DNA from: Allokutzneria sp. A3M-2-11 16
GTDB lineage: Bacteria; Actinomycetota; Actinomycetes; Mycobacteriales; Pseudonocardiaceae
Length of the DNA stretch: 64,000 nt
Assembly: GCF_024213555.1 (NCBI RefSeq)
Contig: NZ_JANAVO010000006.1
Location: 1 to 64,000, forward strand
Reading direction: 5' to 3'
In this document: positions 41,079 through 57,975 of the stretch, in pieces
Position numbering within the stretch: the stretch's first letter is position 1
Layout of the letters: each line of letters starts with the position of its first letter
Program-made: the position numbers and the translations under genes
Notes under the pieces: model-generated
The model's input: the letters and a program-made list of their open reading frames with translations, nothing else
What the model was told of the DNA's origin: nothing
Database searches by the model: none

Positions 41079-41877
41079 CGGGGCAGGTGCCGGGGTCGTG
41101 ACGGGTGCCGAGGGTCCAGTAGGCCTCCTCGGCGGACCGCCACAGTTCGGGGAACAGCGGCACGTCGGACCGGGTTTCCAGGGTGGAGACCGATCGGCCG
41201 CCGAGGCTCTGCGGGAGCGTGGAGCGGCCTTCGTCGCGCAGGCCGGGCTGCCCGCCGAGCTGCGACCACACCATGATCAGGTGGGTGTGCTTCCACGACA
41301 GGAAGCCGCTGTCCAGGCGCAGCAAGCCTTCCCGCACGAGGGCGAGGGCTTGCGCCTGCTGAGACTGGCCTGACGTGTCGTCCTGCGCGGCGATCAGGTC
41401 GGGCAGCTTCAGGCCCGCGCGGTCGAGCGCGCCCTCGAAGGACTTCGACACCGCGCGCGCGACCCGCTTGAGGTTGCGGTAGCCGGGGGAGTCCAGGCCG
41501 GTGGCGTCGTCGGGCAGGGCGTTGCGCATCATCAGCAGGCTGTGCTGCGGCAGGTGATCGCCGATCATCCGCACCGACTGCACGGTGATGTCGCTGAGCC
41601 CGACCGCCCGTGCGAGCAGCCGCGACGCCTGCTGCGGGCGCGAGGCGTCGAGGTGCTCGATCACCCGGCGCAGCTCGTAGTGGATCTGCACCCACGCGTA
41701 CTCGCTGATCAGGTGCACCACTTGGAAGAAGCGGTGGTCGGGGTGGCGGGTGTCGTCCTCCGGGATGAGCGCGGACAGCGCGGTGGTGAGGCGCAGCTCG
41801 TCCTCGTAGTTGCTGCCGCGGTCGTACTCGTAGGACAGCTGGCCGTTGGTCTCATTCGGGTTGAGCGAGCGCTTCAC
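41068..41877 (-). CDS. Tryptophan 2,3-dioxygenase-family heme enzyme
   Basis: This 269-aa protein matches the TDO superfamily: an N-terminal YEDELRLTTALSAL helix, FFQVVHLISEYAWVQIHYEL (the ELWFK-type region), and the C-terminal heme-proximal segment FLSWKHTHLIMVWSQLGGQPG. TDO-family enzymes oxidise indole rings: N-formylkynurenine formation, or variants such as MarE and PrnB in natural-product pathways. GTG 41877 overlaps the stop of the MBL gene (GTGA). It is the last gene of the minus-strand operon and suggests that a tryptophan-derived unit is used. Confidence 0.82.
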   Translation of the reverse strand: MKRSLNPNETNGQLSYEYDRGSNYEDELRLTTALSALIPEDDTRHPDHRFFQVVHLISEYAWVQIHYELRRVIEHLDASRPQQASRLLARAVGLSDITVQSVRMIGDHLPQHSLLMMRNALPDDATGLDSPGYRNLKRVARAVSKSFEGALDRAGLKLPDLIAAQDDTSGQSQQAQALALVREGLLRLDSGFLSWKHTHLIMVWSQLGGQPGLRDEGRSTLPQSLGGRSVSTLETRSDVPLFPELWRSAEEAYWTLGTRHDPGTCPVTR

Positions 41878-42660
41878 GAGCCCTTCCCTTCCGTGGTCAC
41901 GAGAAAACGATGCAGGGCGACCAAGGTGTGATCGCGGGGATACGGCGACCGGGCGATGATCTCGGCCCGGTCGGCGGTGGTGCGGAACAGATCGACCACA
42001 GTGGACAGTTCGTCGCGAGCGGCCTTGATGAAGGAGAGCGGCACCGGTGTGCCGTGCCCGGGGATGATCGTGCCGAGCGCCGAATCGAGGAGCCGGTCCA
42101 ACGCGGCGGGCCACTGCGCGGGCCAGGAGTCGGCGAACGCGGGCGCCATGCCCTCCTCCAGCAGGTCGCCGGTGAACGTGACGTCGGCGTCGGGGATGTC
42201 GACCACCAGGTCGTGGTCGGTGTGCCCGACGCCGGGATGCCAGAGCACGACCGTCCGGCCACCGAGGTCGATCTCGGCGCGCGTGTCCACGAGGTGTGTC
42301 GGCGGAGTGATCGTCACGTCAGCGCGGTCCGGCAGCGCCTTCACCACCATCGCCTTCTCCGCCTCGCCTTCCCGCCGCAGCCGCGCGGCGCAGAGCCGGT
42401 GGCCCCAGATCGCGGCCGGGAGGAACGCCTCGTTGCCGAAGCAGTGGTCGAAGTGGAAGTGCGTGTTGACCACGTGTCGCACGGGAACCGTTGTCAGCGC
42501 TTGGATTTCGGCAAGCATCTCGCGGCCTTCGCGCGCAGAGGACCGCGTGTCGACGACGAGCGCCGCCTCCGAACCCACGACGAGCCCGACGTTCGTGGAG
42601 AAGCCGGAGCAGGTCCGGTAGTAGACGCCCTCGGCCACCGAAGTCCACTGGTCAGCCACG
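41874..42660 (-). CDS. Metallo-beta-lactamase-fold hydrolase
   Basis: This protein has about 261 aa. It contains the zinc motif NTHFHFDHCFGN (HxHxDH), VGHTDHD and IIPGHGTPV, which make a complete two-metal MBL site. GTG 42660 (VADQWTSVAEGVYYR) overlaps the end of the aminopeptidase gene by nine bases. Possible roles are hydrolysis of a thioester or ester intermediate, or of an N-formyl group formed by the neighbouring dioxygenase; the sequence does not decide. Confidence 0.85.
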
Positions 42661-45108
42661 GTCGCACCGCCGCGCGGCCAGGGCGCGGACCACGCTGGCG
42701 TTGGCCTCGCTGACGATCCGCCGCAGCCCGGCCGGACGATCCGCGGACAGCCAACGCGAAGCCAGGTCAATGGTTTCCTCGTTGACATGCCACTCCGGAA
42801 ACAGACCGCGCACCACCGTCTGCGCGGACTCGCTGGACCGCCGCGCCCACACGCCGTCGACGTCGTCGAAATACCGCGCCACGTAAGGGCGAAGCAGGTG
42901 GGGCTGAGCGGGATGCCAGAAGCCGCCGACGATCGCTTCGCTGGTCGCGTTCGACAAGTTCCCCTGAATCAGCCGCAACCACGCCTTTTCCTTGGCCTGC
43001 ATGGTCGGGAGGAGCGCGCTCGCCTTCTCAGCCGCCAGGTGACCGGTGGCCGTGGGATCGCGCTTCAGCTCCGCGGCGATCTCCGACGCATCGGCCGCCC
43101 CGTGCGCGACGAGGCCGCACAGGATGTGCCACCGCAGATCGGTGTCCAACGAGAGCCCAGGCAACGAGCCGGAAAACCACCCGCGCAGCACCTCGCTGTG
43201 CGAAGGGGACAACACGGAACCGGCCAGCGAACGCACGAACGCCAGCTGGTGATCGGAACCCGGCTCAGCCGAAAGGGCCAGCTCGACGAGCCGATCGCTG
43301 ACGATCTGCCACCCCTGTGCTTCCCAGGCAGGATCGGCGAAGTACGACAGCGACGTGCCCGCCTGCCACAGGACCCGCGCGACGACGCTGACCTCGGTCT
43401 CCGCGCCGACGTGCCGCATCACCAGGTCGACGAGATCACGCGCTCGCAGCTCGGCGTCGCGCACCATCTCCCACGTGGCCGACCAGCACAACGCCCGGGT
43501 GAGCGGTCGATCGATGCTCGACAGCCCCTCCCGCACCGCCGCCAGCGATCCCGCGTCGAGCCGGATGTCGGCGTAGGTGAGGGCATCGTCGTTGAGCACC
43601 ACCAGATCCCCGGCCGGAACACCCACCAGCGAGGGGACCTCCGTGCGCGGCCCGCTGATCTCCAGCTCCACCCGGCGCCGCGAAGCCCCGGAGTACACGC
43701 CGACCGCGAGCCGATGCGTGCGCGGAGCGGACTCCTGACAGACCGCGAAGCGCGTGTACTTGCCGTCTTCAACCGTGAAGTCCGGCCGCAGCACGGAAAC
43801 CCCGATCGTCGTCAGCCACTCCGTTGTCCAGGAAGACAAATCGACGTCGGCCGCCTTGGACAGCGCGATGATCAAATCAGCCAGGGTGGCGTTGTCCCAG
43901 GCGTGCGCGCGGAAGTACTCGCGCAGGCCCACCAGGAACGTGTCCAGGCCGATGCGGGCCACGAGCTGCCGCAGCACACTGGCGCCCTTGGCGTAGGTGA
44001 TGCCGTCGAAGTTCACCTCGGCCGCGTAGAGATCCGGTGTGGGACAAGCGATCGGATGCGCCGAAGGCAGCTTGTCCTGCCACCGCGCCCAAGCCTCCTC
44101 GTGCACCGCGAAAGTCGCCCACGCCGAGCGGTACTCGGTGGCCTCGACCAACGTGTGGAAGCCGACCCACGTGGCGAAGGACTCGTTCAGCCACAGATCG
44201 TCCCACCACCGCATGGTGACGAGGTCGCCGAACCACATGTGCGCCAGCTCGTGCAGCAGCGTCTCCGCGCGCCGCTCGTAGTCGGTGCGCGTGACCCGGC
44301 CGCGGAACACGTACTTCTCCGACAACGTCGTGCACGCGGCGTTTTCCATTGCGCCGCCGTTGAACTCCGGCACGAAGCACTGGTCGTACTTCGCGAACGG
44401 ATACTGCGTGCCGAACGAGCGGGTCAGGAACTCCAACCCCTGCTTGGTTTCGGTGAACAACCGCGACGCGTCGAGGTGCTTGGCCAGCGACGAACGGCAG
44501 TACAGGCCGAGTGGCACCGAGCCGCTGTCATCACGGAACTCCGCGTACGGACCGGCCACCAAGGACACGAGATATGTCGGCAGCGGGGGAGTCTGCTCGA
44601 AGGTGACCTCGACGAAATCGCCAAGCAGACGCCGTTCGAGCACAGGCGTGTTCGACACCAGTGTCCAGGAAGGCGGCGCGACAACGGTCAACTCGAAGCG
44701 CGCCTTGAGATCCGGCTGGTCGAAGCACGCGAACACGCGCTGCGCGTCGGCGGGTTCGAACTGGGTGAACAGGTACACACCGTCATCCACCGGGTCCACG
44801 AACCGATGCAGTCCCGCACCCGTCCGCAGGTACTGGCAGTCGGCTCGCACCACCAAGTGGTTGTGCTCCTGGAGATCCTGTAGCAGCAAGTCATCCTGCG
44901 ACTGTCCATTGAGGACAATCTCGTGCACCGTGTCCGCGACCAGGTCGACGCGGACGGTGGAGCCGGGACGGGTCGCGCGGAACCACACCTCCGTCGTGCT
45001 GGCGAAGGTGTGGTCCCCGGTCAGGTCAAGCCTGATCCGGTACTCGTCGACCTCGACCAGGCGGGCGCGCTCGCGCGCGGCCACCTCGGTCAGGTTGGTG
45101 CTCACCAC
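42652..45108 (-). CDS. M1-family aminopeptidase (PepN-like)
   Basis: This protein has about 818 aa. The substrate-binding exopeptidase motif reads FNGGAMENAA, and the zinc site HELAHMWFGDL (HExxH) is followed by NESFATW, which supplies the third ligand; the C-terminal half is the ERAP1-like helical domain. GTG 45108 follows GAGAGGTGG. It removes N-terminal residues from peptides. Its place inside a biosynthetic operon, coupled to the MBL gene, suggests it trims a peptide intermediate or leader, although a housekeeping-type enzyme captured by the operon cannot be excluded. Confidence 0.92.
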   Translation of the reverse strand: MVSTNLTEVAARERARLVEVDEYRIRLDLTGDHTFASTTEVWFRATRPGSTVRVDLVADTVHEIVLNGQSQDDLLLQDLQEHNHLVVRADCQYLRTGAGLHRFVDPVDDGVYLFTQFEPADAQRVFACFDQPDLKARFELTVVAPPSWTLVSNTPVLERRLLGDFVEVTFEQTPPLPTYLVSLVAGPYAEFRDDSGSVPLGLYCRSSLAKHLDASRLFTETKQGLEFLTRSFGTQYPFAKYDQCFVPEFNGGAMENAACTTLSEKYVFRGRVTRTDYERRAETLLHELAHMWFGDLVTMRWWDDLWLNESFATWVGFHTLVEATEYRSAWATFAVHEEAWARWQDKLPSAHPIACPTPDLYAAEVNFDGITYAKGASVLRQLVARIGLDTFLVGLREYFRAHAWDNATLADLIIALSKAADVDLSSWTTEWLTTIGVSVLRPDFTVEDGKYTRFAVCQESAPRTHRLAVGVYSGASRRRVELEISGPRTEVPSLVGVPAGDLVVLNDDALTYADIRLDAGSLAAVREGLSSIDRPLTRALCWSATWEMVRDAELRARDLVDLVMRHVGAETEVSVVARVLWQAGTSLSYFADPAWEAQGWQIVSDRLVELALSAEPGSDHQLAFVRSLAGSVLSPSHSEVLRGWFSGSLPGLSLDTDLRWHILCGLVAHGAADASEIAAELKRDPTATGHLAAEKASALLPTMQAKEKAWLRLIQGNLSNATSEAIVGGFWHPAQPHLLRPYVARYFDDVDGVWARRSSESAQTVVRGLFPEWHVNEETIDLASRWLSADRPAGLRRIVSEANASVVRALAARRCDRG

Positions 45109-46167: not shown

Positions 46168-47202
46168 TTAGTCGGTTTCGTGTGCGGGACAGCGGGACTC
46201 TGGTGCGGGCGCGAAGAACGACAGCCCCTCGCCGAAGCGCAGGATCGCCCTCCTGCCCAGTGAGGCGCAGTCCCCGGAGGCCAGGTACTGGCAGACGTCG
46301 TGCCCGAGCATCGCGGCGATGACGCTGTTCGACGGCCCGAAGGAGTACGGGGTCGGATCGGTGAGCGCCTGCCGCAGCTCGTGCTCCAACGGGCTCATCT
46401 GCGCTCGCTTCGCGTGGTCGAAGCAATCCAGGCAGCCGCCGCGCTCGGGCACCACCAACGGCCCCCAGTACCCGCTGCCCAGGCCGACCGCGCCGGAGAC
46501 CAGCGGAACACCCGTCGGACCGGCCCAGCGCCAGCAGATCAGCGCGATGTCGGTGGGCACGTCCGCGGCGCACACCAACAGGTCCAGGTCGTCGGGGAGC
46601 ACGTTCAGGTCTTCGGCGGAGCGCACGGCCAGCCGGATCGGGTGGTACTCGGTGTGCTCGGAGTGCGCGGTCAGCGCGTCCACCGCGGCCTCGACTTTGG
46701 GGCGGCCGAAGTCCTTGCGCGAGAACAGGTATTGCCGGTTCAGGTTGTGCGCGGCCACCACGTCGTCGTCGATCAGCCAAAGCGCGCCGACACCGGCGCC
46801 GACGAGGTGCTGGGCGACGAGCCCGCCGATCCCACCGACGCCGAGGATGCCGACCCGGGCAGCACGCAGGCGTTCCTGCATCCGTCCGGCCTCCGTGCCG
46901 AACAGCGAGAGGTAGCCGAGCTGGCGCTCCCACGGCATACCGGGGGCTTCGGGCGTGGAAAGCTCGCCGCTGAGCCAGTTCTCGGCGCCGAGCCGGGCCA
47001 GGAACGCGTCGATGACGTCCGCGGGGGCGTGCCGGGTCAGCTCGTCCCGGGTCGTCCCCCGTTCGAGCGCGGAGGCGATCCGGGTCAGGACCTCCTTGTC
47101 CCCCTTGACCCGCACGGCCTTGGTGTCCCGCAACAGGGTGAGCGCGTCGTCGTGGCACACCCACCGCAGCGTGGGCACCAGGCGGATCGGACGATCAGTC
47201 AT
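46168..47202 (-). CDS. ThiF/MccB-like E1 adenylating enzyme with possible RRE domain
   Basis: This 344-aa protein has an N-terminal domain (about 1-85) with winged-helix features like the RiPP recognition elements of MccB/TOMM ThiF-like proteins. An E1 domain follows: GILGVGGIGGLVAQ (ATP loop), then DDDVVAAHNLNRQYLF and FGRPKVEA with the Arg and Lys that bind ATP. Zinc ligands are CLDC and probably CPAH near the end. E1 enzymes adenylate C-terminal carboxylates of peptides or small proteins. It overlaps the SBP-like gene by eight bases. No ThiS-like partner is seen; the 19-residue peptide at 53108 is a candidate substrate. Confidence 0.85.
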   Translation of the reverse strand: MTDRPIRLVPTLRWVCHDDALTLLRDTKAVRVKGDKEVLTRIASALERGTTRDELTRHAPADVIDAFLARLGAENWLSGELSTPEAPGMPWERQLGYLSLFGTEAGRMQERLRAARVGILGVGGIGGLVAQHLVGAGVGALWLIDDDVVAAHNLNRQYLFSRKDFGRPKVEAAVDALTAHSEHTEYHPIRLAVRSAEDLNVLPDDLDLLVCAADVPTDIALICWRWAGPTGVPLVSGAVGLGSGYWGPLVVPERGGCLDCFDHAKRAQMSPLEHELRQALTDPTPYSFGPSNSVIAAMLGHDVCQYLASGDCASLGRRAILRFGEGLSFFAPAPESRCPAHETD

Positions 47203-48520
47203 CGTGGACCACCAGGTTCCGCATCGGCATGGTTCCGTCCATGGCCAGGTCGAGCCCGCCGACCCGCGGCGCGCGGAGGCAGTGCGCGCGCACCTGGAGC
47301 AGCGTGATCTTGGGCATCACTTCGCACCACCGCCGTGCCACGTCGATCCACCGGGCCGCCGCATCCGAGTCGGGCAGCGTGCACGCCTCGGTGACCAACG
47401 CGTCGAACCCCGCGTCCGCGAACCCGGCGTGCCGCGCTTGCGCTCCTGTCGAAGCCCAAGGCCCCAGAACCGCCGCGGGATGCGGGTACTCCGGCGCGGT
47501 CAGCGTGTAGAGCAGGCAGTGATCACGGGAAACGGCGAGCTTGATGTAGTCCTCGAACGAGTGCGAGGCGGTCGTCACCTCGACACCGATGGCCTCGCGC
47601 ACCTGGCGGGCGATCTCTCCGACGACCTCCGCGTTGGGCGTGTAGTCGGCGTAGTCGATGTGCAGCCGCCCATCGGGACACGCCGCGCGAAGCTCCGCCG
47701 CGTCGAATCCGTCCTGTTCGGACACTTCGCCGAACCACGGTTGCAGTGGAGACCAGCACGGGCGCGCGGTCCCGCCGGTCGCAGCGGCGATCTCCGTGCG
47801 CCGCAACAACCTTCCGAGCGCGGCGCGCAGGTGGCCGGAGGTGCCAAGCGAACCGCTCCGCGACCCGAAGTCGAGCGAACCGTAGAGCAGGATGTCGCGC
47901 CGAATCAGATCCGGACGGTCCTTGATGACAGTGAGCTCGGCCGGACCGAAGCTGGTGATCGGCGTGACGTCGATCTCTCCGTTGGCGTAGGCGGCCAGGA
48001 TCTCGTCGGGCTTCTCGGTGAGCCGGAAGACCAGGCGCTTGGGCTGATCGGAACCGAAGGCGTGCCAAGGGTTGCGCTCAAGCACGATCTCAGACGATTC
48101 CCACGACGACACCGCGTACGGGCCCAGCACGAGATCGTCCCGCACCGGCGCGAACCGGGTCATCGACAGCACATGCGGCGCGTACCCGACCGGCCGAGCG
48201 AACTGGTACTCGACGGTGTGGGCGTCCACGGCGCGAACCGCGCTGACCAGGCCGGGCCTGCGCTCGATCGCCCGAGTCGCCGCGCGCACGGCGTCCTCCG
48301 CGGCCAACGGCTGTCCATCAGACCATCGAAGCGAGTCGGAGAGCGTTACTCGCCAAAGCTTTCCGTCATCCAAAGACTCCGCATCCACGGCACTGCCGAA
48401 GCCGTCGTCCCACAGCGGACGCAGCAGCGCCCCGGCGAGCAACCGCCCGTTGACGTCGACGGGCCAGTGCGGGTCGCGGTTGACGGGCAGCGCGTCGAGC
48501 CCGAACACGATCTCGCTCAT
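47195..48520 (-). CDS. SBP_bac_5-like substrate-binding domain protein, no signal peptide
   Basis: This 441-aa protein resembles family 5 (oligopeptide) solute-binding proteins: LLRPLWDDGF, SLRWSDGQPLAAEDAVRA, LGPYAVSSWESSEIVLERN. Unlike secreted relatives it begins MSEIVFGLDALPVNRD with no signal peptide or lipobox, and no transporter genes are adjacent, so it should be cytoplasmic. SgrR-type regulators use such a domain as an intracellular sensor, but no HTH is present here. It overlaps the A-domain gene by four bases and the ThiF-like gene by eight. It may bind a peptide intermediate; this is inferred. Confidence 0.8.
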   Translation of the reverse strand: MSEIVFGLDALPVNRDPHWPVDVNGRLLAGALLRPLWDDGFGSAVDAESLDDGKLWRVTLSDSLRWSDGQPLAAEDAVRAATRAIERRPGLVSAVRAVDAHTVEYQFARPVGYAPHVLSMTRFAPVRDDLVLGPYAVSSWESSEIVLERNPWHAFGSDQPKRLVFRLTEKPDEILAAYANGEIDVTPITSFGPAELTVIKDRPDLIRRDILLYGSLDFGSRSGSLGTSGHLRAALGRLLRRTEIAAATGGTARPCWSPLQPWFGEVSEQDGFDAAELRAACPDGRLHIDYADYTPNAEVVGEIARQVREAIGVEVTTASHSFEDYIKLAVSRDHCLLYTLTAPEYPHPAAVLGPWASTGAQARHAGFADAGFDALVTEACTLPDSDAAARWIDVARRWCEVMPKITLLQVRAHCLRAPRVGGLDLAMDGTMPMRNLVVHDD

Positions 48521-49950
48521 GCCGACCGCCTGGTGAACGCACGTCGATCGAGCTTCCCACTCGGAGTCCTCGGCAGCGCGGGGGCGAGATCGATGCGTGA
48601 CGGCACCATGTAGTCCGGCATGCGATCCCGCAGCCGCGCGAACACTTCCGCCGTGCTGAGCGAGGACGTGCGCGGCACCACCACGGCGGCCAGATGTCTG
48701 TCCAAAGAGGACTCACCCGCCACGTACACGGCCGACTCGGCCACCCCGGGCACGTCGTTGAGCATGTGCTCGACCTCGCTGGGCTCCACGCGGTGACCGC
48801 GGATCTTGACCTGATCGTCCATCCGGCCAAGGCATTCGACCTCGCCGTACTCGTTGATCAGGCCCAGGTCCCCGGTGAGGTAGGCGCGCCCGTCAGGGGT
48901 GCAGGGATCGGGCACGAAGCTCGCGGCGGTGCGCTCCGGCAGGCCGTGGTAGCCACGCGCGACACAGGCCCCCGCGACCACCAACTCGCCGGACTCGCCC
49001 GGCAGCAGCGTCGCACCGGAAGCGTTGCGCACGTGCACGTGGATGTTCGGCAACGGCTTCCCGACCGGCGGGTGCAGCGGCCAGTCGGCCGGATCACCGG
49101 TGAGCCGGTGATTGGTCACGATCAGCACTTCCACCGTGCCCCACTGGTTGATCAGGTCGCACTGCGGCAGCGCGGCGAACATCCGCCGGACGTCGTCGTC
49201 GCAGCGCAGTCGCTCACCGCCGACCACGACCTCGCGCAGCGGGTACGTGGAGATGTCGCGGTCCTGTGCGAACACCGCCAGCGACTTGAGCCCGACGAAG
49301 GTCAGGAAGACCCGGCGGACACCCTCGCGTTCGATGAGGTCCCACAACAGATCCGGATCGAGCCGCTCGTCCTCCTCGCAGCACACCAGGGTGCCGCCGG
49401 AGCACAGCGTCGCCAGGATCTCCTCGTAGGCCACGTCGAACGAGATCGGGGTGAGCTGGAGAGTGCGGTCGCCGACCCCGCACACGCTGTCTTTCACTTG
49501 CCACTCAACGAAGTTCGCCACGGCGGCGTGCTCGTAGACCACGCCCTTGGGGCGCCCGGTCGAGCCCGATGTGTACGCGATGTAACAGGTGTCCTCGCCG
49601 ACTGAGCCATCCATTGTGGACAGATGCGTGAAGTCGCCGAGGACCAACGCGCACTGGGCGTCCTCGCACATGTACCGCAGCCGGTCCTCGGGGTAAGCCG
49701 TGTCGAGCGCGACACAGGCGCTTCCCGAACGGAGGATGCCGATGAAGGACACCACGAGTTCGATCGACCGCTCGATGTGCAGCCCGACAGGACGTCCAGG
49801 GCCTCCACCCGACGCGAGGACCTTCTCCGCGATGTGCCCGGAGCGCTCCCACAGCTCGGCGTAGCTGATCGCCTCGCCCCGGAACCGCACCGCCTCGACA
49901 TCGGGATGAGCGACGACGTGCCGCTCCAGCATCTCCAGCACGGTCGTCAC
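48517..49950 (-). CDS. Stand-alone NRPS adenylation domain
   Basis: This 477-aa amino-acid-activating enzyme has A3 YTSGSTGRPKG, A4 LTPISFDVAYEEI, A5 NQWGTVEVLIV, A7 YLTGDLGLINEYGEVE, A8 GRMDDQVKIRGHRVEPSEVE and A10 PRTPSGKLDRRAF with the catalytic Lys. No carrier domain is fused, so it most likely loads the discrete carrier protein encoded at the head of the operon. The neighbouring aminotransferase/cupin/methyltransferase genes suggest a beta-methylated aromatic amino acid as substrate; the specificity pocket was not decoded with confidence. Confidence 0.93.
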   Translation of the reverse strand: MTTVLEMLERHVVAHPDVEAVRFRGEAISYAELWERSGHIAEKVLASGGGPGRPVGLHIERSIELVVSFIGILRSGSACVALDTAYPEDRLRYMCEDAQCALVLGDFTHLSTMDGSVGEDTCYIAYTSGSTGRPKGVVYEHAAVANFVEWQVKDSVCGVGDRTLQLTPISFDVAYEEILATLCSGGTLVCCEEDERLDPDLLWDLIEREGVRRVFLTFVGLKSLAVFAQDRDISTYPLREVVVGGERLRCDDDVRRMFAALPQCDLINQWGTVEVLIVTNHRLTGDPADWPLHPPVGKPLPNIHVHVRNASGATLLPGESGELVVAGACVARGYHGLPERTAASFVPDPCTPDGRAYLTGDLGLINEYGEVECLGRMDDQVKIRGHRVEPSEVEHMLNDVPGVAESAVYVAGESSLDRHLAAVVVPRTSSLSTAEVFARLRDRMPDYMVPSRIDLAPALPRTPSGKLDRRAFTRRSA

Positions 49951-50963
49951 AGGCCCACCTCGTCCAACGCGTCGAGGAACCGGGTCAGCGCTTCGCGCGT
50001 ACCCAGGGAAACCCTTAGGTAGCCCGGAAAACCGAACAGCCCAGCATTGCGAACGAGCACACCGTGCTCGGCGGCGAGCCGGTCCTGCGCAACGGCCGGA
50101 TCGGCAACGCGGACCGCGACGAAGTTCGTCACCGACGGCAGGTGCGCCCGTCCACGCCGGTCAAGCGCGTCGCAGAACCACGTGCGCGTCTCGGCGTTGG
50201 CCTGCTCCGTCTGGCGAAGGAACTCCTGATCGTCGAGGGCAGCGACGGCTGCGGCCTGCGCGAGCCGGTTGACGCTGAAAGGCAACGCCCGCAAGGTTTC
50301 GCGCAGCTCGGCCATCAGCTCGGCCGGGCCGAGCGCATAGCCGATCCGCAGCGCCGCGAGCCCGTACGCCTTCGAGAAGGTCCGCAGCGCGAGCACGGGC
50401 ACATCCCGGTCCAGGTAGTCACGAGCCTGCGGTGTCCCGGCGCCCGCGAACTCCATGTACGCCTCGTCGAACACCAGCGGCACGCCGGACCGCTCGGCGG
50501 CCGACACCAGGGAGTCCATGTCCCGCCGGGACAGCACGGAACCGCTGGGGTTGTGGGGGTTGCAGATATAGCCGATGCCGTGTGCGGGCAGTTGCTCGAC
50601 GAAGCCCGCACCGTCGAGCGGCACGACGCTCGAACCACGCCCGATGCGGTTCAGACAGGTGCGGTAACCGGGAAAGGTGCCGTCGGTGACCAGGCCCGCG
50701 GTGGTGCGGTCGCCCAACGTCAGAGCGGTGGCGAGCACGAGTTCGTCGCTCCCGTTGGCGACCGCGATCCGATCAGCGGGCAGATCCCAGTGCCGTGCAA
50801 GGGAATCCACCAGCTCATCGCGCTCCGGCGCCGGGTACACGCTGACCCGGGTCAGCTCCCGCTCAGCCGCCTTCACAGCCAACGCGCTTGCGCCGTAAGG
50901 GCTTTCGCTCAGGTGCAGCCGCACAAGATCATCGGCCCCGGCGACGCTCGCGTTGAAGCTCAC
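49947..50963 (-). CDS. PLP aminotransferase, histidinol-phosphate/aromatic type
   Basis: This 338-aa fold-type I aminotransferase has CNPHNPSGSVLS (substrate-binding Asn), FDEAYMEFAG (Asp to the pyridine N) and RTFSKAYGLAALRIGYALG with the PLP-binding Lys. It interconverts an aromatic amino acid and its 2-keto acid. Its neighbours, a cupin and a SAM methyltransferase, match the gene set that makes beta-methyltryptophan in maremycin and streptonigrin producers (MarG/MarH/MarI type). It overlaps both flanking genes by four bases. Confidence 0.9.
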   Translation of the reverse strand: MSFNASVAGADDLVRLHLSESPYGASALAVKAAERELTRVSVYPAPERDELVDSLARHWDLPADRIAVANGSDELVLATALTLGDRTTAGLVTDGTFPGYRTCLNRIGRGSSVVPLDGAGFVEQLPAHGIGYICNPHNPSGSVLSRRDMDSLVSAAERSGVPLVFDEAYMEFAGAGTPQARDYLDRDVPVLALRTFSKAYGLAALRIGYALGPAELMAELRETLRALPFSVNRLAQAAAVAALDDQEFLRQTEQANAETRTWFCDALDRRGRAHLPSVTNFVAVRVADPAVAQDRLAAEHGVLVRNAGLFGFPGYLRVSLGTREALTRFLDALDEVGL

Positions 50964-51358
50964 AGCCCGTCTCCGACCAGCATGCCGAAGCAGTAGCTGC
51001 CCACCTCGGCCTCAAGGGTCAGGAAGCAGTGCTCGCTCCCGGCGGGGATGCGCATCGCGGCGGGGGAGCTCAGCTCGTGCCGCACGCCGTCCAGCAGCAC
51101 CTCGATCCGCGCGCCACCGGGATTGGGGGAGACCAGCAGGTAGATCTCGTCGACCTCGTGGGTGTGCGGCGCGGCCACCGGCTTGCCGACCAGACCGCTC
51201 AGCTCGCCGCCCGCCAGCTGCACCGGCAGCCCGCCGAACATGTCCGCGGTCAGGTAGAACGGCGCGGGCTGGTGATGCCCGGCCACCGCGAGCGGGATCG
51301 GCAGGTCGGTGACGATGCTCGACCCCGCGAGCGGGTCTTCGGTGACGATCTCGCTCAC
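50960..51358 (-). CDS. Small cupin protein (MarH-like candidate isomerase)
   Basis: This 132-aa single cupin domain has metal ligands visible in THEVDEIYLLVSP and a second half ending PAGSEHCFLTLE. In beta-methyltryptophan biosynthesis a cupin (MarH) sets the C3 stereochemistry of the methylated keto acid; size and gene order fit that role. GTG start overlaps the methyltransferase stop (GTGA). An aldose/keto-acid isomerase of another type remains possible. Confidence 0.8.
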   Translation of the reverse strand: MSEIVTEDPLAGSSIVTDLPIPLAVAGHHQPAPFYLTADMFGGLPVQLAGGELSGLVGKPVAAPHTHEVDEIYLLVSPNPGGARIEVLLDGVRHELSSPAAMRIPAGSEHCFLTLEAEVGSYCFGMLVGDGL

Positions 51359-52413
51359 TGCGCCTCCAGGACGAACAGGAAGGTGTGCGGGGCGCCGAAA
51401 GGCACGGTGCGGCGCACGGTCAACCCACCGCGCTCGAACAGCTCCTCGTAAGCCTCACGCGTGTGCAGGGGAACCCCCATCAGCGCGTGCGCGAGCTCGA
51501 AACCGCTGGAGAACACCGGAAGCGAGGTGCCACCGGCGTCGCGCGGGCGGATCACCGTGTCCGCGATGAGGAAGGTGTGCGCGTTCGGGAACGCCGCGCG
51601 AAGGAGGGGCACGACGTTGTCGCCGTGCACCGGGTCGGCCAGCAGGTCGTGGAAGAACATGAAGCTCATGACCACGTCGACCTCGTCGGCGCCGTCCACC
51701 CGCTGAGCCCCGGCGAGCACTTCGCGTACGTCCGCGCGAACCGGCTTCACCCGGTCGCCCAGGCCGTAGGAGGCCACGTTCTCCACCGCCAGCTCGGTGG
51801 CCGACGCGCTGATGTCGAGGCCGATCCCGCGACCGCCGTGCGCCGTGACCATCCGGCAGAGCCGATCGCTGGTCCCGCTGCCGAGGTCGGCGAGCACGGA
51901 GAAGTCGACGTGCGCCATCTCCTCGCCCAGCAGGTGCCGCATCAGCGCGGTGTCGGCCTGGGTGGAACCGAGCGCCACCATGGCCTCGTCCCGCAGCACG
52001 TCGACGCCGAACTTGCGCCGCCCGCTGGCGATCGCGGCCGCGCCCGCGAAGACGTCGTGGTAGCCGCCGACCGCCCAGGTGAAGAAGCCGACCAGGTGGC
52101 GGCACCGCCTGCCCTCCTCGGTCAGCGAGAACCCGCCCCCGTCCACCCGGACCAGGCCGAACGCCTCGGCAGAGGAGACCAGCGCGCCGAAGACCGCGTC
52201 GTCGAGCCCGTGCCGCGCGCAGAAGGCCGCGCTCTCCAGCGCCCCGCCCGCGTCCAGCTCGGCGAACACCCCCAGCCGGTCCAGCGCGAACACCACGTGC
52301 GTGCCGACGAACCCGTTGAAGGCGGTGTCCGCGGTGAGCGGGGTGAGCGCGGTGCCCCGCCATTCCGGGGGCTCGGCGATCCCGGTGTCGGATTGAGCGT
52401 GCACCGAAGTCAC
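51355..52413 (-). CDS. SAM-dependent C-methyltransferase, MarI/MppJ-like candidate
   Basis: This 352-aa methyltransferase has an N-terminal helical/winged dimerisation region (FNGFVGTHVVFALDRLGVF) and a Rossmann domain with VLADLGSGTSDRLCRM, GIGLDISAS and a C-terminal MSFMFFHDLLAD. Together with the aminotransferase and cupin it fits a C-methyltransferase acting on an aromatic 2-keto acid at the beta carbon. The GTG has AGAGAGGA seven bases upstream. It is the second gene of the minus-strand operon, 36 bases after the carrier gene. Confidence 0.83.
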   Translation of the reverse strand: MTSVHAQSDTGIAEPPEWRGTALTPLTADTAFNGFVGTHVVFALDRLGVFAELDAGGALESAAFCARHGLDDAVFGALVSSAEAFGLVRVDGGGFSLTEEGRRCRHLVGFFTWAVGGYHDVFAGAAAIASGRRKFGVDVLRDEAMVALGSTQADTALMRHLLGEEMAHVDFSVLADLGSGTSDRLCRMVTAHGGRGIGLDISASATELAVENVASYGLGDRVKPVRADVREVLAGAQRVDGADEVDVVMSFMFFHDLLADPVHGDNVVPLLRAAFPNAHTFLIADTVIRPRDAGGTSLPVFSSGFELAHALMGVPLHTREAYEELFERGGLTVRRTVPFGAPHTFLFVLEAQ

Positions 52414-52449: not shown

Positions 52450-52698
52450 CTAATTCGGAGTGGACTTCGAAATCACGTTGCCCGCCCCGGCCTTTTCCGC
52501 TAACGCGCTTGCCAGCCCGCGAATGGTCGGGTTGTCGAACACCGTCCGGACACCGACCGCGATGCCGGTCCGCCGACGTAGTGATCTCAGCATCAGCGTA
52601 GCTCGGAGCGAATGTCCGCCGACTTCGAAAAAGTTTGCTTCGTCATCGAAATTCCCGTGTTCGAGAACCTCGGTCCAGGCGTCGCGTACCAGGGGCAG
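52450..52698 (-). CDS. Discrete peptidyl carrier protein, unusual start
   Basis: This carrier protein of about 82 aa was found by direct translation. The helix-1 region is PLVRDAWTEVL, the phosphopantetheine site NFFEVGGHSLRA, and the C-terminal helix TVFDNPTIRGLASAL. No ATG, GTG or TTG is available in frame. CTG 52698 has GGGGAGG eight bases upstream. An ATC at 52782 would give 110 aa. If one A of the AAAA run (plus strand 52786-52789) is extra, ATG 52801 would give a natural MTLGKEINDFDD start. It is the first gene of the operon and is the likely partner of the stand-alone A domain. Confidence 0.8.
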   Translation of the reverse strand: MPLVRDAWTEVLEHGNFDDEANFFEVGGHSLRATLMLRSLRRRTGIAVGVRTVFDNPTIRGLASALAEKAGAGNVISKSTPN

Positions 52699-52861
52699 CC
52701 ACGGATCCTCCCCGGCGCATTCGGTCCTGACCTGCGCTGAAGCGTCCGATGGCGCCCGTGATGCGTCATCGAAATCGTTGATTTCTTTTCCCCAGTGTCA
52801 TCACGTTGCCATCTCGGTCACCCGGTCGTCGGTGTGCGACGACAGGCGGGTCCCGTTTCGC

Positions 52862-52985: not shown

Positions 52986-53015
52986 TTGACCGTCGAATCG
53001 GGATCTGGGTAGCTT
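52986..53015 (+). promoter_or_regulatory. Predicted promoter of the 19-residue peptide / NRPS operon
   Basis: TTGACC (52986-52991) and TAGCTT (53010-53015) are separated by 18 bases. Transcription would start near 53022 and give a leader of about 86 nt before the peptide start codon at 53108. Confidence 0.6.
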
Positions 53016-53107
53016 TTGTCCCGGCGGCGAAAGTGCTTTCGTCGCGAATCTGATCCTGGGGTAAAAGCCGTGGTGACGATTCATTCCTGTGATAGAAGGA
53101 GGATGTC

Positions 53108-53167
53108 ATGGAGCGCATCGAGACGATCGAGCTGAACGAGGTCGCGGACCTGCTTCACCGCACCTGA
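53108..53167 (+). CDS. 19-residue peptide, candidate precursor/scaffold or leader peptide
   Basis: The frame encodes MERIETIELNEVADLLHRT and ends in two adjacent stops (TGA, TAG). GAAGGAGG at 53095-53102, a perfect anti-16S match, lies five bases before the ATG, much better than most sites in this window. A strong promoter precedes it and a GC-rich hairpin follows eight bases after the stop. The peptide is amphipathic (I4, I7, L9, V12, L15, L16) and has no Trp or Cys. It could be a substrate of the ThiF-like enzyme and aminopeptidase of the divergent operon, or a regulatory leader peptide. No known family is recognised. Confidence 0.7.
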   Translation: MERIETIELNEVADLLHRT

Positions 53168-53174
53168 TAGCTCG

Positions 53175-53206
53175 GCCGGGGGCCCGGTTCCGGCCGGGCC
53201 CCCGGC
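53175..53206 (+). terminator. GC-rich hairpin after the peptide gene (terminator or attenuator)
   Basis: GCCGGGGGCCCGG (53175-53187) pairs perfectly with CCGGGCCCCCGGC (53194-53206): a 13-bp all-GC stem with a 6-nt loop, followed by a pyrimidine-rich GTTCTTCTTCC. It would stop most transcripts after the peptide and let some through to the biosynthetic genes. Confidence 0.8.
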
Positions 53207-53268
53207 ACACGTTCTTCTTCCGAAGACCCGCTTGTCGGGGTCGAGCGTCAACACCGCCTGGGGGCACC

Positions 53269-54123
53269 GTGCGGCACGCGATTCTCGGGGCCGGTGGCGT
53301 CGGCCTGGCGCTGGGCGCCGCGCTGACTCGGGCCGGGCACCCGGTCACGCTGGTCATGCGGGAGTCCTCGCGCGCGGCCTACTCCGGCACCATCACCGTC
53401 CACAGTAGACTCAAGGGTGGCTCCGCGGTCCCCGTTCCCGCCGTCGACCGGCTCGACGAGGACGTGGACGCGCTGTGGCTGACCGTCAAGGCGCCCGCGT
53501 TGGAAAGCGCTTTGCGCCGGATCGGCCCGGCCGTCGCCACCGCTTCGGTCATCCCGTTGCTCAACGGGATCGACCACCTCGACCTCCTGCGCGCGCGGTT
53601 CGGTCCGCGCGTGCTCGCGGGCGCGATCCGGATCGAGGCCGAGCGCGGCGCGCCGGGGGAGGTCACCTGGAACTCCCTGTTCGGCTCGGTCGAGCTGGCC
53701 GGGGCGAACGAGGCGCTGCGCGCGGACCTGTACTCCGCCGGGATCGACTGCGAACTCGCGGCCGACCCGGCGAAAGTGCTGTGGCACAAGCTGATCCTGT
53801 TGCTCCCGTTGGCGCTGGCGACCACGGTCGCCGAGGGCCCGCTCGGCGTGGTGCGGCGTGATCGCGAACTCACCTCGCTCATGGTCGGCGCAGCTCGCGA
53901 GGTCTGCGCCGTGGCCGCCGCGCACGGTGTTCCCGTGGACGCGGCGGCGAGCGTGCGGGCCCTGGAATCGTTGCCGGGCCGGACGAACAGCTCGCTCCGG
54001 CGGGACGTGGCCGCGGGCGTCCGGCCGACCGAGCTGGACACCATCGCCGGTCCGGTGCTGCGGCACGGGACCGCGCCGTCGGTGGCCGAGCTGGTCCGGC
54101 TCGCCCGCGCGGCGGGGGCCTGA
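53269..54123 (+). CDS. Ketopantoate reductase-family (ApbA/PanE-like) oxidoreductase
   Basis: This protein has about 284 aa. The N-terminal Rossmann motif is ILGAGGVGLALGAAL, VKAPALESAL follows, and the C-terminal helical domain begins with AKVLWHKLILLLPLAL, whose Lys is the catalytic residue of PanE. The family reduces 2-keto acids or related carbonyls with NADPH. GTG 53269 is used; upstream codons would run across the hairpin. Cluster position suggests tailoring or building-block reduction rather than pantothenate synthesis. Confidence 0.85.
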   Translation: MRHAILGAGGVGLALGAALTRAGHPVTLVMRESSRAAYSGTITVHSRLKGGSAVPVPAVDRLDEDVDALWLTVKAPALESALRRIGPAVATASVIPLLNGIDHLDLLRARFGPRVLAGAIRIEAERGAPGEVTWNSLFGSVELAGANEALRADLYSAGIDCELAADPAKVLWHKLILLLPLALATTVAEGPLGVVRRDRELTSLMVGAAREVCAVAAAHGVPVDAAASVRALESLPGRTNSSLRRDVAAGVRPTELDTIAGPVLRHGTAPSVAELVRLARAAGA

Positions 54124-54184: not shown

Positions 54185-54457
54185 ATGACGATCGGAACCG
54201 ACCGGACGTTGGAGGACGACGTCAGGGCCATCCTGGTCTTCGACGTCTACGTGGAGGCCTCGGCCGAGGAGATCGGGCTCGACGACGGGCTGCGGGACGT
54301 CCTCGGCCTGGACTCGCTGGGCTTCGTCGAGCTGCGCGCCCAGTGCGAGCAGCGGTTCGGCGTGAAGATCACCGACGCCGAGTTCACCCAGGTGCACTTC
54401 CGGTCCGTGCGCACCGTCGCCGACCTCGTCCGCAAGCTGCGGGACGGCCGCTCTTGA
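54185..54457 (+). CDS. Acyl carrier protein
   Basis: This 90-aa carrier protein has the phosphopantetheine motif VLGLDSLGFVEL (Ser near residue 44) and acidic helices, as in discrete type II ACPs. ATG 54185 has AAGGGA upstream. Its stop overlaps the TTG start of the NRPS gene (TTGA), so the two are coupled. It may carry the acyl group joined by the first condensation domain or by the discrete ketosynthases. Confidence 0.92.
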   Translation: MTIGTDRTLEDDVRAILVFDVYVEASAEEIGLDDGLRDVLGLDSLGFVELRAQCEQRFGVKITDAEFTQVHFRSVRTVADLVRKLRDGRS

Positions 54458-57400
54458 ACACCACGCCGGCCTCGGTCGAGCAGAGCGAAGTGTGGCTGGC
54501 CTGTCAGCGCGAGCCGGAGTCCGACCGCTACAACATCACCGTCGACGTGGAGTTCACGCCCGCCGTTGACGTGACGGCGCTGCGCGCGGCCTTCGCCGAC
54601 GTGGTGCGGGCTCATCCCACGCTGCGCAGCCGTTTCGACACCATCGGCGGCCAGCTGACCCGCGTGATCGAAACGGATCCGCCGCTGGCCCTCGTGGAGG
54701 AGCGCTCCGCCGATCCCTACGACCGCGCCCGCGCGCAACGGTGGGCGGTTCTCGTCGGCCGCGCCCCGCTGGACCTCACGGTCGCCCCGGTCGTCCGCGC
54801 CGCGCTGCTCGTGGCCGATGGCGGGGCGCTGCTCGCGGTCACGATGCACCACATCATCTCCGACGGTTGGTCCGTCGACGTCTTCACCCGCGAGCTGGTC
54901 GCCGCCTATCGCGCGCGGCTCGCCGGAGAACCGTTGCCCGCCAAGGAAGAAGTGCCAGCCCAGGAAGAAGTGTCGACTGAGGCGGAGCCGGGCAGCGAGG
55001 ACTACTGGGCGGACCTGCTCAGCGAAGCCCCGACTCCCTTGACGCCGCTGCATGATCTGGCCCCCGAGGACGGCCTGCCCGGCGAGTCGGCCTCCCTGGA
55101 ACTGCCGTTGCCCGCGGACGTCGTCGCTTCGGTGCGCGCGGTGGCCAAGGTCGAGCGCAGCTCCCCGGCCGTGGTGCTGCTCAGCGGCTGGTCGATCCTG
55201 TTGCACGCCTGGAGCGGGCGGGCCGAGGGCACCTTCGGCACGGTCTTCGCCGGACGCGAGCCAGGCAGCGAGGACCTGATTGACCTGCGCAGCCGCGTGC
55301 TGCCGATGCGCGACCGGCTCGACCCGGATCGCCCGTTCCGCGACGTGCTCGCCGCGTTGCGGAACCAACTCCTGGATTCGCTGGAGCACTCCGCGCTGCC
55401 CGTCGAACGGTTGCAGCACGTCGAGCGCACGGTGTTCATGCACACCCCGGCGCCCGCGGACGCGTGGCCGGTCGGAGATTGCACGATCCGCAGGCTCGAA
55501 CACCTGACGGACACGACGAAGTACGAGTTCTCGCTCAACATCATCGAAGGCGCCGACGACATGCGGCTGCTCTTCTACTACGACGCGGCCCGCTACCGTG
55601 CGAGTTCGGTGCGGCTGTTCGCGGAGCAGCTTCGAGATCTCCTTGCCGCCGCGACAACGGAACCGGCCACGTCGTGCGGTGACCTCCTCGTCGCCTGTGA
55701 CTCCGATCGACCGTCCACTTCGGTCACGCGAACGCAGTCCGAGCTGATCCCGGACCTCGTTCTGCAGTGCGCCGCTGAGCGCCCGAACGCCGTCGCGGTC
55801 CGCCACGGGGACGACACGATCACCTACGGCGAACTCGTCGACCGCGCGTGTGCGATCGCCAACTGGTTGCGGGACAACGGAGTTCGCGAAGGCGACATCG
55901 TCGCCCTGCTGCTGCCGCCCGGGATCGACCCACCCGTGTTCTGGTTGGGCACGGTGCTCGCGGGCGCCGCGTACGTCCCGCTCGACCCGGCCTATCCCAC
56001 GGCGCAGTTGCAGCTGATCGTCGACGACGCCAAGCCGCCGGTGCTCGTGGTCGACCCGGAGTGGGCGGGCGAGGTTACTCTGGGCAGTGGAACCGTGATC
56101 TCCGTGTCGGACTTGCTCGCGCAGGCGCCGACCGGTGGCGAGCCGCCTGTGGTCGACCGCGACGGCGAGTCCACCTTCTGCGTGCTCTACACCTCTGGCA
56201 CCACCGGGCGCCCCAAGGGAGTCGTTGTCCCGCACCGAGGTATGGCGCGGTTGATGGCACAGCCCGACTTCATCCCGCTGGACGACTCGGATGTCGTAGC
56301 GCAGTTGTGCCCGTTGAACTTCGACGGTGCGGCATATGAGGTTTGGGGCGCGCTGGCGCACGGTGCGCAGCTGGTCGTCTTCGACAAGCACCTCGTGCTG
56401 GACCCGCGTGCGATGCGCGCGATCGTCCGCGAGCGCGGAGTGACGACGTTGCTCGTGACCACACCGCTGCTGAACCGGATCATCGAAGACGCACCGGATC
56501 TGTTGCAGTCACTGCGCCGTGTGTACTTCGGCGGCGAGCTGATCTCCGTGTCGCACATGCGCCGCGCGCTGAACTGGTGCCGCCCCGGTGTGTTGCTGCA
56601 CAGCTACGGCCCCACGGAGAACTCGTTCACCTCCACGTGGTTCCCGATCACCGAGGTCGACCTGAGGGCGCGGACGCTGCCGATCGGCGATCCGGTGCCG
56701 GGTACTGAGCTGTACGTCGTGCAGGAAGGCACCACCCGCCTGGCCCCGCGCGGTGTGGCGGGGGAGCTGCTGCTCGGCGGGACCGGGCTGGCCCACGGCT
56801 ACCTCAACGATCCCGAGCTGACCGCGGCGCGGTTCGTCCCGAACCCGTTCTCCGCCGACGAGCGGGCTCGGCTGTACCGCACCGGCGATCGCGTGCGCTG
56901 GACCGCACACGGGCTGCTGGAGTTCATCGGCCGCACCGACAACCAGGTGAAGATCCGCAGCCAGCGAGTCGAACTCGGCGAGGTCGAAGCGGTCGTGGAC
57001 GCGCACCCCTCGGTGCGTTCGGTCTTCGTCACCGCGCGCCGTAACCAGCGCGACGAGAAGGAGATCGTCGCCTATGTGGTCGGCGCGGCCGACGAGGCCG
57101 AACTGCGGCGGCACGCCCAGGCCCGGCTTCCCGGATTCGCCGTGCCGCGGCACTTCGTGCTGCTCGACCAGCTGCCGCTGACCCCGACCGGCAAGATCGA
57201 CCGGCGTCGGCTGCCCGATCCGGAACACGTGGTGGTCGCGGCGGCTCCGAGCACCGGCGCCATCGAGGGCGTTCGCGCCGCATGGCGGGCCGTCCTCGGA
57301 CAGGAGTCGTTCGGGCACAACCAGAACTTCTTCGACGCCGGAGGCCACTCGCTGTTGCTGGTGCGGCTCCAGGATGAGCTGCGCGCCGCGACCGGGGTGA

Positions 57401-57975
57401 CGCTGTCGATCATGGATCTGATGCGGCACGCGACCGTGCGCGAGCAGTCCGATCTCCTTGCGGGGCAAGCGACTTCGCCGGACACCGCGCCCGTGGTGAC
57501 GCGTGCTCGCACCACGGTCGTGGTGCCGAGCGCGGAACAGTCGGCCGATGGCCACGTGCCGCAGGTCATCGCGTTGTCGGCCAGTACGGGGCCGCTGCTC
57601 GACGCCGCCCGCCACCGCCTGGCCGAGCACCTCCGCGCCACACCCGGGCTGTCCCTGGACGACGTCGCGCGCACCCTCGACGTGGGCCGGGAACCGCTGC
57701 CGCACCGCTTCGCCGTGGTCGCCGCCGATCTTGAGGAAGCCGTGCGCGGCCTCGAAGGCGAGCCCGGAGCGCGGGTGTTCCTCGGTGCGGCCGAGGCACC
57801 GCCGCCCGCGGCCCCCGCGGACGCCTCGCCGGAAGCCGTCGCGCGAGCGTGGTGCCGCGGCGCCGAGGTGGGCCTCACCCCGGCCGGGCGCGGGCGCCGG
57901 ATCCGTCTGCCCGGCCAGCCGTTGGCCTGGGCCGTCCTGAAGATGAGAGGTCAGCATGTCGCAACTGCGCGGTGA
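54454..57975 (+). CDS. NRPS C-A-T protein with C-terminal PKS linker remnant
   Basis: This 1173-aa protein starts at TTG 54454. The condensation domain (1-430) has an intact MHHIISDGWS at 131-140. The adenylation domain (about 440-930) has YTSGTTGRPKG near 580, SYGPTENSFTSTW, YRTGDRVRW and PTGKIDRRRLP. The carrier has DAGGHSLLL near 962. From about 1040 on it holds IALSASTGPLLDAARHRLAEHL and VARAWCRGAEVGL, which match the KS-AT linker and post-AT linker of a PKS with KS and AT cores missing. The dehydrogenase gene overlaps its end by 20 bases. Confidence 0.92.
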   Translation: MNTTPASVEQSEVWLACQREPESDRYNITVDVEFTPAVDVTALRAAFADVVRAHPTLRSRFDTIGGQLTRVIETDPPLALVEERSADPYDRARAQRWAVLVGRAPLDLTVAPVVRAALLVADGGALLAVTMHHIISDGWSVDVFTRELVAAYRARLAGEPLPAKEEVPAQEEVSTEAEPGSEDYWADLLSEAPTPLTPLHDLAPEDGLPGESASLELPLPADVVASVRAVAKVERSSPAVVLLSGWSILLHAWSGRAEGTFGTVFAGREPGSEDLIDLRSRVLPMRDRLDPDRPFRDVLAALRNQLLDSLEHSALPVERLQHVERTVFMHTPAPADAWPVGDCTIRRLEHLTDTTKYEFSLNIIEGADDMRLLFYYDAARYRASSVRLFAEQLRDLLAAATTEPATSCGDLLVACDSDRPSTSVTRTQSELIPDLVLQCAAERPNAVAVRHGDDTITYGELVDRACAIANWLRDNGVREGDIVALLLPPGIDPPVFWLGTVLAGAAYVPLDPAYPTAQLQLIVDDAKPPVLVVDPEWAGEVTLGSGTVISVSDLLAQAPTGGEPPVVDRDGESTFCVLYTSGTTGRPKGVVVPHRGMARLMAQPDFIPLDDSDVVAQLCPLNFDGAAYEVWGALAHGAQLVVFDKHLVLDPRAMRAIVRERGVTTLLVTTPLLNRIIEDAPDLLQSLRRVYFGGELISVSHMRRALNWCRPGVLLHSYGPTENSFTSTWFPITEVDLRARTLPIGDPVPGTELYVVQEGTTRLAPRGVAGELLLGGTGLAHGYLNDPELTAARFVPNPFSADERARLYRTGDRVRWTAHGLLEFIGRTDNQVKIRSQRVELGEVEAVVDAHPSVRSVFVTARRNQRDEKEIVAYVVGAADEAELRRHAQARLPGFAVPRHFVLLDQLPLTPTGKIDRRRLPDPEHVVVAAAPSTGAIEGVRAAWRAVLGQESFGHNQNFFDAGGHSLLLVRLQDELRAATGVTLSIMDLMRHATVREQSDLLAGQATSPDTAPVVTRARTTVVVPSAEQSADGHVPQVIALSASTGPLLDAARHRLAEHLRATPGLSLDDVARTLDVGREPLPHRFAVVAADLEEAVRGLEGEPGARVFLGAAEAPPPAAPADASPEAVARAWCRGAEVGLTPAGRGRRIRLPGQPLAWAVLKMRGQHVATAR

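Follow-up and report, generated by a model that had tools for sequence, protein, structure and literature searches.

The peptide gene and the gene cluster around it

The window, which is the whole 64-kb stretch of DNA analysed here, comes from contig C40, part of an 8.8-Mb genome. On its plus strand, an RBS (GAAGGAGG, 53095-53102), read from the sequence and identical in the sister species G034, is separated by a 5-nt spacer from an ATG at 53108, which opens a 19-codon gene (53108-53167; CDS 53108-53164) with the product MERIETIELNEVADLLHRT. The frame is closed by tandem stop codons, TGA (53165-53167) and TAG (53168-53170), confirming at exact positions (53095-53170) the RBS five bases before an ATG, the peptide frame and the double stop of the original prediction. 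According to its codon list, the 19-mer ends in H-R-T and contains no Cys, Lys, Trp, Tyr or Phe and a single His. Between 37.5 and 61.8 kb, no other SD-preceded ORF of 8-60 codons on either strand lies mostly outside annotated genes. The sigma-70-like promoter also predicted for it was not borne out: no plus-strand site passed the sigma-70 scan, one minus-strand site did, and the gene is preceded by a weak promoter-like pair, TTGACC-N18-TAGCTT (52986-53015, plus strand), that falls below the scan threshold. A pair with the same spacing and the same second hexamer (TTGACG-18 nt-TAGCTT) precedes the gene of a ketopantoate-reductase-like enzyme (KPR) in a peptide-less paralogous cluster on contig C41.

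Four nucleotides past the second stop begins a GC hairpin (53175-53206, plus strand) with the predicted stem of 13 perfect base pairs and a 6-nt loop. It is the sole perfect Watson-Crick stem of at least 11 bp (loop 3-8 nt) in the whole 64 kb, and the RNA fold of 53165-53264 had a z of -3.5, with none of 200 shuffles equally stable. The likeness to a terminator did not hold, as the hairpin has no U-run and an intrinsic-terminator scan returned no site. Further downstream, the stretch 53220-53254 belongs to a palindromic repeat (core GAAGACCCGCTTG[T]CGGGGTCGAGC) that is dispersed through the genome, where it has at least 18 further matches, including one at 51302-51342 of the window; this repeat is missing at the corresponding spot in G034.

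The peptide gene and the hairpin head a plus-strand operon that continues with KPR (53269-54123; domain annotation), an acyl carrier protein (ACP, 54185-54457; PP-binding, 4.1e-12), an NRPS C-A-PCP module (54454-57975; domain annotation, with the name MarM-like given by inference), ADH, KS, SnoaL and a regulator. The divergent minus-strand operon carries, from the promoter side onward, a stand-alone carrier protein (PCP, 52450-52776; PP-binding, 2.9e-14), a MarI/StnQ1-like C-methyltransferase (51355-52413; sequence matches), a MarH/StnK3-like cupin (50960-51358), a MarG/StnR-like aminotransferase for beta-methyltryptophan (49947-50963), a stand-alone adenylation (A) domain (48517-49950; domain annotation), an SBP_bac_5 protein (SBP, 47195-48520), a ThiF-like enzyme (46168-47202), an O-methyltransferase, a PepN-type M1 aminopeptidase (42652-45096; TIGR02412), a metallo-beta-lactamase-fold (MBL) hydrolase as an accessory gene (41874-42650; Pfam) and a MarE-like heme oxygenase (41068-41874). 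The 19-mer gene does not adjoin the ThiF gene, being located in the operon divergent from it. The cupin matched PDB 7eqk and 6j4b (E about 1e-67), which we take to be MarH/StnK3, and the heme oxygenase matched PDB 9ca3 and 8vyy (E about 1e-115), presumably both MarE. The methyltransferase-cupin-aminotransferase order is that of the stnQ1-stnK3-stnR cassette for beta-methyltryptophan as described in the consulted part of PMC4742848. Judged by its MarG-H-I cassette, its MarE and its core gene order, the cluster is of the maremycin/FR900452 type, for which we consulted parts of the mar cluster literature (PMC4611700 and PMC5454204; also PMC10698177, PMC8949500 and PMC11355689).

By coordinates and annotation, the A, SBP and ThiF genes overlap within this beta-methyltryptophan operon. 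None of the cluster's annotated genes was recognised as a MarQ-like Cys A domain, and none of those of 37.6-61.8 kb as a RiPP-type exporter or resistance gene; the radical SAM/B12, 2OG oxygenase and ABC-F genes of the relatives described below were likewise not found there. The genome has three full-length PepN copies, and the one here shares 54% and 47% identity with the others; besides the trimming role considered below, it could just as well serve in resistance, should the product be an inhibitor of aminopeptidase N. Read by eye, PCP (52450-52802, minus strand) has no in-frame ATG, GTG or TTG start, and in the window its frame is interrupted by a stop immediately upstream; G034 differs by one base at this stop, and both genomes keep a GGGGA with an ATC codon after it.

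Comparison within the genus and with sister clusters

The genus sample comprised three genomes, and the sister species G034 keeps the entire set of ThiF, SBP, PepN, the 19-mer (18/19 residues) and the complete stem. The RBS, the double stop and the stem are retained while the non-coding flanks diverge, with identities of 81% in the upstream non-coding DNA and 29% in the 58 bp downstream. In the coding part, two of 57 sites differ, one of them synonymous and the other causing I7V. At the sequence level, the 19-codon gene is a real conserved ORF. Its conservation is coding-like and not exceptional, because 12% of all 117-nt segments of the aligned 24 kb are conserved at least as well as the stretch from RBS to hairpin. 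The dN/dS values against G034 (ThiF 0.12, SBP 0.16, A 0.13 and PepN 0.11) indicate purifying selection. A conserved hairpin without a conserved peptide, the pattern expected of a pure attenuator in the original prediction, was not seen, as both are retained jointly in G034.

A MarE query found matches in 10 of 392 Streptomyces genomes and 7 of 390 genomes of the family, giving 18 loci in total; the family-level matches include two loci in the window's own genome. Five clusters share the core order of the window (KS, AMP-ligase, TE, MarE, OMT, MarG-H-I, PCP, KPR, ACP and NRPS), namely those of the Streptomyces genomes G1098, G1291, G1269 and G1281 and the second locus of the window's own genome on C41. 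In three of them (G1098, G1291 and the C41 paralog) ADH-KS-SnoaL follow, and in G1281 (a 12-kb stretch) and G1269 (a 40-kb stretch) this part lies outside view. This comparison excludes the own cluster of the named producer, strain B9173, and kept matches of NRPS, A and AMP-ligase at E <= 1e-20, with the best three matches per query.

In contrast to the window, the same-order clusters have no ThiF, SBP, PepN, 19-mer or stand-alone A gene at this place. ThiF, SBP and PepN had no match at E <= 1e-3 in the examined stretches of all five, and none of the five PCP-KPR gaps contains such a peptide or a perfect stem of at least 9 bp. In the four Streptomyces clusters of this set, nothing matched the MBL hydrolase; its single, distant match (22%) is located about 4 kb beyond the C41 cluster. 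The other MarE loci, six from other Streptomyces and five from the family (G016, G124, G1375, G1402 and G1406), have other layouts, and among the matches listed there was none to ThiF in the examined stretches of these eleven loci. The 19-mer, ThiF, SBP and PepN are thus together in both clusters of the genus (the window and G034), and the peptide and ThiF are both absent from all five sister clusters, in agreement with the predicted pairing of the peptide with a ThiF-like gene. The 19-mer is known in two genomes, both of one genus, so its co-occurrence with ThiF counts as one evolutionary event.

Candidates for a MarQ-like A domain, assigned irrespective of an S-methyltransferase interruption, lie beside SnoaL in G1098, G1291 and the paralog (G000b), whereas MarQ, an A domain interrupted by an S-methyltransferase, was not recognised among the annotated genes of the cluster in the window. 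The C41 locus (G000:C41, about 140000-159500; L077-L079) is a further maremycin/FR900452-type cluster that appears to be complete; it lacks the ThiF module and has its MarQ-like A domain next to SnoaL. As a paralog from the window's own genome that is free of the module, it provides a natural control.

The ThiF enzyme, its relatives and their precursors

The ThiF-like enzyme is an MccB-like adenylyltransferase (Pfam ThiF, E 1.2e-35) proposed to act on the 19-mer. Its best solved-structure relative is MccB (E 3e-24 with the single sequence and 3e-47 as a profile), with the match starting at profile position 56. The N-terminal domain gave no RRE-type Pfam hit, and an AlphaFold model of ThiF alone had a pLDDT of 37. 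The closest ThiF proteins outside the genus are those of G551 and of an S. chartreusis plasmid, and both are encoded directly behind another SBP_bac_5 gene, together with radical SAM/B12, a P450 and a 53-residue precursor ending in ARRC. As loci, L032 (9407-13853) and L036 are RiPP-like clusters with an ARRC precursor, radical SAM/B12, SBP, ThiF and a divergent P450, the former being part of a 2.0-Mb contig of one Streptomyces and the latter of a linear plasmid of S. chartreusis.

With a ThiF profile (A2) built from four proteins (those of G551 and the plasmid and two from the window's genus), we obtained matches in 33 of 199 Streptomyces genomes at E <= 1e-25 and in nine at E <= 1e-42, including G551, which is itself in the profile. 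These nine genomes were studied at the locus level, with G1131 and weaker matches outside the set. The window ThiF is 37-45% identical to those of L108-L113, 33% to L032 and about 30% to L114. A related SBP is present in eight of the nine genomes, and the plasmid copy likewise combines ThiF with an SBP and a precursor. The SBP of the window, whose gene overlaps the ThiF gene start, is thus a recurrent partner of this ThiF clade; it is 26-35% identical to the SBPs of L108, L109, L111, L112 and L113 and 24% to that of L032. Inspection of the SBP N-termini by eye revealed no signal-like stretch, and the window protein is accordingly without an evident signal peptide.

At E <= 0.01, no SBP was found within about 3.5 kb at 18 ThiF loci of an earlier search (21 matches besides the genus's two), nor in longer stretches of three of these loci, and the window SBP matched only its own genome at E <= 1e-25 among 394 genomes of the class. 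Genome-contig scans with the methyltransferase and with ThiF found no relatives. A plasmid search gave no match for the cupin, distant matches only for the methyltransferase and one weak match for the window SBP.

We examined the relatives' loci for precursor genes and found an ORF ending in R-[S/T/C] in eight of the nine closest ThiF genomes, with the ends ARRC (G551 and G1120), KHRS (G950), RVRS (G1083 and G1110), RVRT (G1041), VHRS (G1099) and VHRC (G984). The precursor of G1099 (L113) was found via this ending, and the others via position and RBS. Across all loci compared, 28 of 507 short SD-preceded ORFs have such an end, true precursors included. The ninth genome, G958 (L110), has no precursor; the match of its locus to L109 begins only inside the cluster, and the end seems to be lost. 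Among the nine closest loci, a ThiF-like gene without a peptide, the contrary case named in the original prediction, was therefore seen only at this apparently truncated one.

The 19-mer (ELNEVADLLHRT) aligns gap-free to the ends of the G950 (TLNDLLAMKHRS) and G1099 (RLGDVLEVVHRS) precursors. Against these precursors (L108 and L113), the BLOSUM62 scores were 16 and 20 with shuffle p values of 0.004 and 0.001, and with the terminal RT fixed the p values were 0.020 and 0.008, all of them uncorrected for the eight precursors tried. Towards the precursors of L109/L111/L112, L032/L107 and L114, the likeness was not significant beyond the terminal motif. Stable structures follow the precursor in seven of the eight relatives' loci folded (z -2.7 to -5.1), a set that leaves aside the plasmid copy; in L109 there is no hairpin after the precursor (z +2.0), and in the near-identical loci L032 and L107 the stem falls inside the first part of the following gene. 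Since hairpins are found behind unrelated precursors, the structure looks like a device for making more precursor than enzyme. Its probable effect is to curb read-through or to shield the 3' end of a short message, which would provide precursor in excess of enzyme.

The window shares the traits that define this family, namely a precursor ending in R-[S/T/C], a ThiF of the A2/A3 clade and an SBP_bac_5 homologue without a signal peptide as judged by eye, and it lacks the radical SAM/B12 and ABC-F genes that are a non-defining trait of several relatives. The 19-mer is best read as the shortest member of the precursor family of ThiF+SBP loci. We found no paper on such a RiPP family in the open-licence PMC literature, searched mostly through titles and the beginnings of abstracts, and a ThiF+SBP_bac_5 precursor family has apparently been undescribed so far. 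Annotated genes in the relatives' loci further include 2OG oxygenases (L109 and L112) and MFS and M16 genes (L111). L108, L109, L111, L112 and L114 are flanked by a gene that we read as ABC-F, in all but L109 from its N-terminal sequence; the ABC-F-like ATPase of L109 scored below the curated profile cut-offs. Radical SAM/B12 and ABC-F-like genes in several relatives hint at ribosome-targeting products, and the ABC-F-flanked ThiF+SBP clusters possibly make ribosome-targeting peptides.

Possible functions of the 19-mer

The relatives' SBP genes, R-[S/T/C] precursors and hairpins, together with the absence of the module from the sister clusters, suggest that the 19-mer is best read as a precursor for ThiF. 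We consider it probable, on the basis of sequence comparison, that the 19-mer is the precursor of a RiPP-type arm served by the MccB-like ThiF and built into a maremycin/FR900452-type NRPS-PKS cluster. Points that weigh against this reading are the restriction of the 19-mer to one genus, its place in the operon divergent from ThiF, its unexceptional conservation, the insignificant likeness to several of the relatives' precursors beyond the terminal motif, the occurrence of R-[S/T/C] ends among other short ORFs, the negative RRE search and the missing hairpin of L109. In this pathway, the 19-mer would correspond to the C-terminal part of the longer precursors of the MccB-like ThiF family, and the SBP_bac_5 partner, probably cytosolic, perhaps helps ThiF as a peptide-holding protein. 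With MccB as the nearest solved structure, the reaction is expected to open with C-terminal adenylation, and ThiF probably activates the 19-mer by adenylating the carboxylate of its C-terminal Thr. The peptidyl-AMP would then be captured by a nucleophile, which may be the side chain of the Thr, the Arg next to it or an amine from another molecule. The family-wide terminal Ser, Thr or Cys beside Arg suggests that a side chain or the guanidine matters in this second step. PepN, the candidate trimming enzyme, may then remove N-terminal residues of the peptide.

With microcin C7 the window shares a ThiF-like enzyme of nearly MccB length with MccB as its best solved match, a very short precursor and, as expected, peptidyl-AMP chemistry at the C-terminus. 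In contrast, its peptide ends in Thr (Ser, Thr or Cys in the family) instead of Asn, no MccC/D/E-like genes were recognised among the annotated genes, and ThiF has a partner SBP and an NRPS-PKS cluster setting. The C-terminal Thr does not fit membership in the microcin C (peptide-nucleotide) group. The pantocin-type core is Glu-Glu-Asn, and the 19-mer, which lacks it, does not fit that type either. Other ThiF-RiPPs are pantocin (PaaA), the GrcB thiolactone, enterofaecin and the IndF indolylamide, according to the consulted parts of PMC12150305 and PMC12250964. As far as these parts describe them, they have in common with the window a RiPP precursor and a ThiF-like enzyme activating a carboxylate, and the M16 protease that removes the leader in the ind system has a counterpart in the M16 gene of L111. 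The 19-mer differs from them in having no Cys, Lys, Trp or Glu-Glu-Asn core, and a dedicated SBP is not mentioned in the same parts of the two papers. Of the original prediction, the RiPP-type precursor tied to a ThiF-like enzyme has been upheld by the alike endings of the Streptomyces relatives' precursors and by MccB as best solved relative, while MccA-like chemistry, which calls for a terminal Asn, and an amino-acid attenuator have not.

How far the peptide is connected with the NRPS-PKS product is a more tentative matter. A leaderless 19-mer that is C-terminally activated by the MccB-like enzyme, joined to or matured into the NRPS-PKS indole building block and then trimmed by the aminopeptidase would make a RiPP-NRPS-PKS hybrid, which we regard as possible and rather unlikely. 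A link between peptide and indole can be argued from the overlap of the A, SBP and ThiF genes in the beta-methyltryptophan operon, from the cluster's apparent lack of a MarQ-like A domain and from the fact that none of the annotated genes of 37.6-61.8 kb was recognised as a radical SAM, ABC-F or exporter gene. Similarly doubtful is a special case of the precursor reading, in which the peptide is a sacrificial scaffold or prodrug: ThiF would couple its C-terminus to an NRPS-PKS amine and PepN would remove it later. The gene overlap in the beta-methyltryptophan operon is consistent with this, as are the MarQ-like candidates that G1098, G1291 and the paralog have beside SnoaL and the cluster in the window seems to lack, the unrecognised RiPP-type exporter and resistance gene, and a PepN that is one of three divergent copies. 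However, relatives of the A domain, about 50% identical, occur among the matches listed in the G016 and G124 clusters without ThiF, and the relatives of ThiF sit in seemingly stand-alone RiPP clusters.

The 19-mer might instead be a regulatory leader peptide whose translation controls the folding of the hairpin and hence the expression of the KPR-ACP-NRPS operon. Like his/trp leader attenuators, the window has a short ORF with a strong RBS and a strong hairpin at an operon head, and the peptide-hairpin unit is kept in G034. Unlike them, it has no run of regulatory codons (no Trp, Cys, Tyr or Phe and one His) and no U-run, it is absent from the five sister operons, and the end of its peptide follows the precursor rule. 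Moreover, the hairpin starts only 4 nt past the second stop, no alternative antiterminator was recognised in the computed folds, and similarly ending precursors, mostly with hairpins, are found in other ThiF/SBP loci. An amino-acid attenuator as the main reading was rejected on the codons, the missing U-run and the sister operons, and attenuation, which had been offered in the original prediction, is quite improbable. Least probable of all is a chance short ORF or decaying remnant, with ThiF using another substrate such as a host sulfur-carrier protein: the 19-mer is confined to one lineage and ThiF enzymes often act on ubiquitin-like proteins, but its conservation is coding-like between diverging flanks, its C-terminal rule and hairpin layout are common to other ThiF+SBP loci, the cluster has no second short SD-preceded ORF outside its genes, and the sulfur-carrier partner was rejected for want of a C-terminal Gly-Gly.

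On the reading of the 19-mer as a ThiF precursor, the window contains the ThiF+SBP module at its minimum, within an otherwise known type of indole NRPS-PKS pathway. Such a minimal module inside an indole pathway means that a single deletion of the peptide gene could show whether ribosomal and non-ribosomal logic join here. If the hybrid reading were true, the locus would represent a ThiF+SBP peptide module transplanted into an NRPS-PKS assembly.
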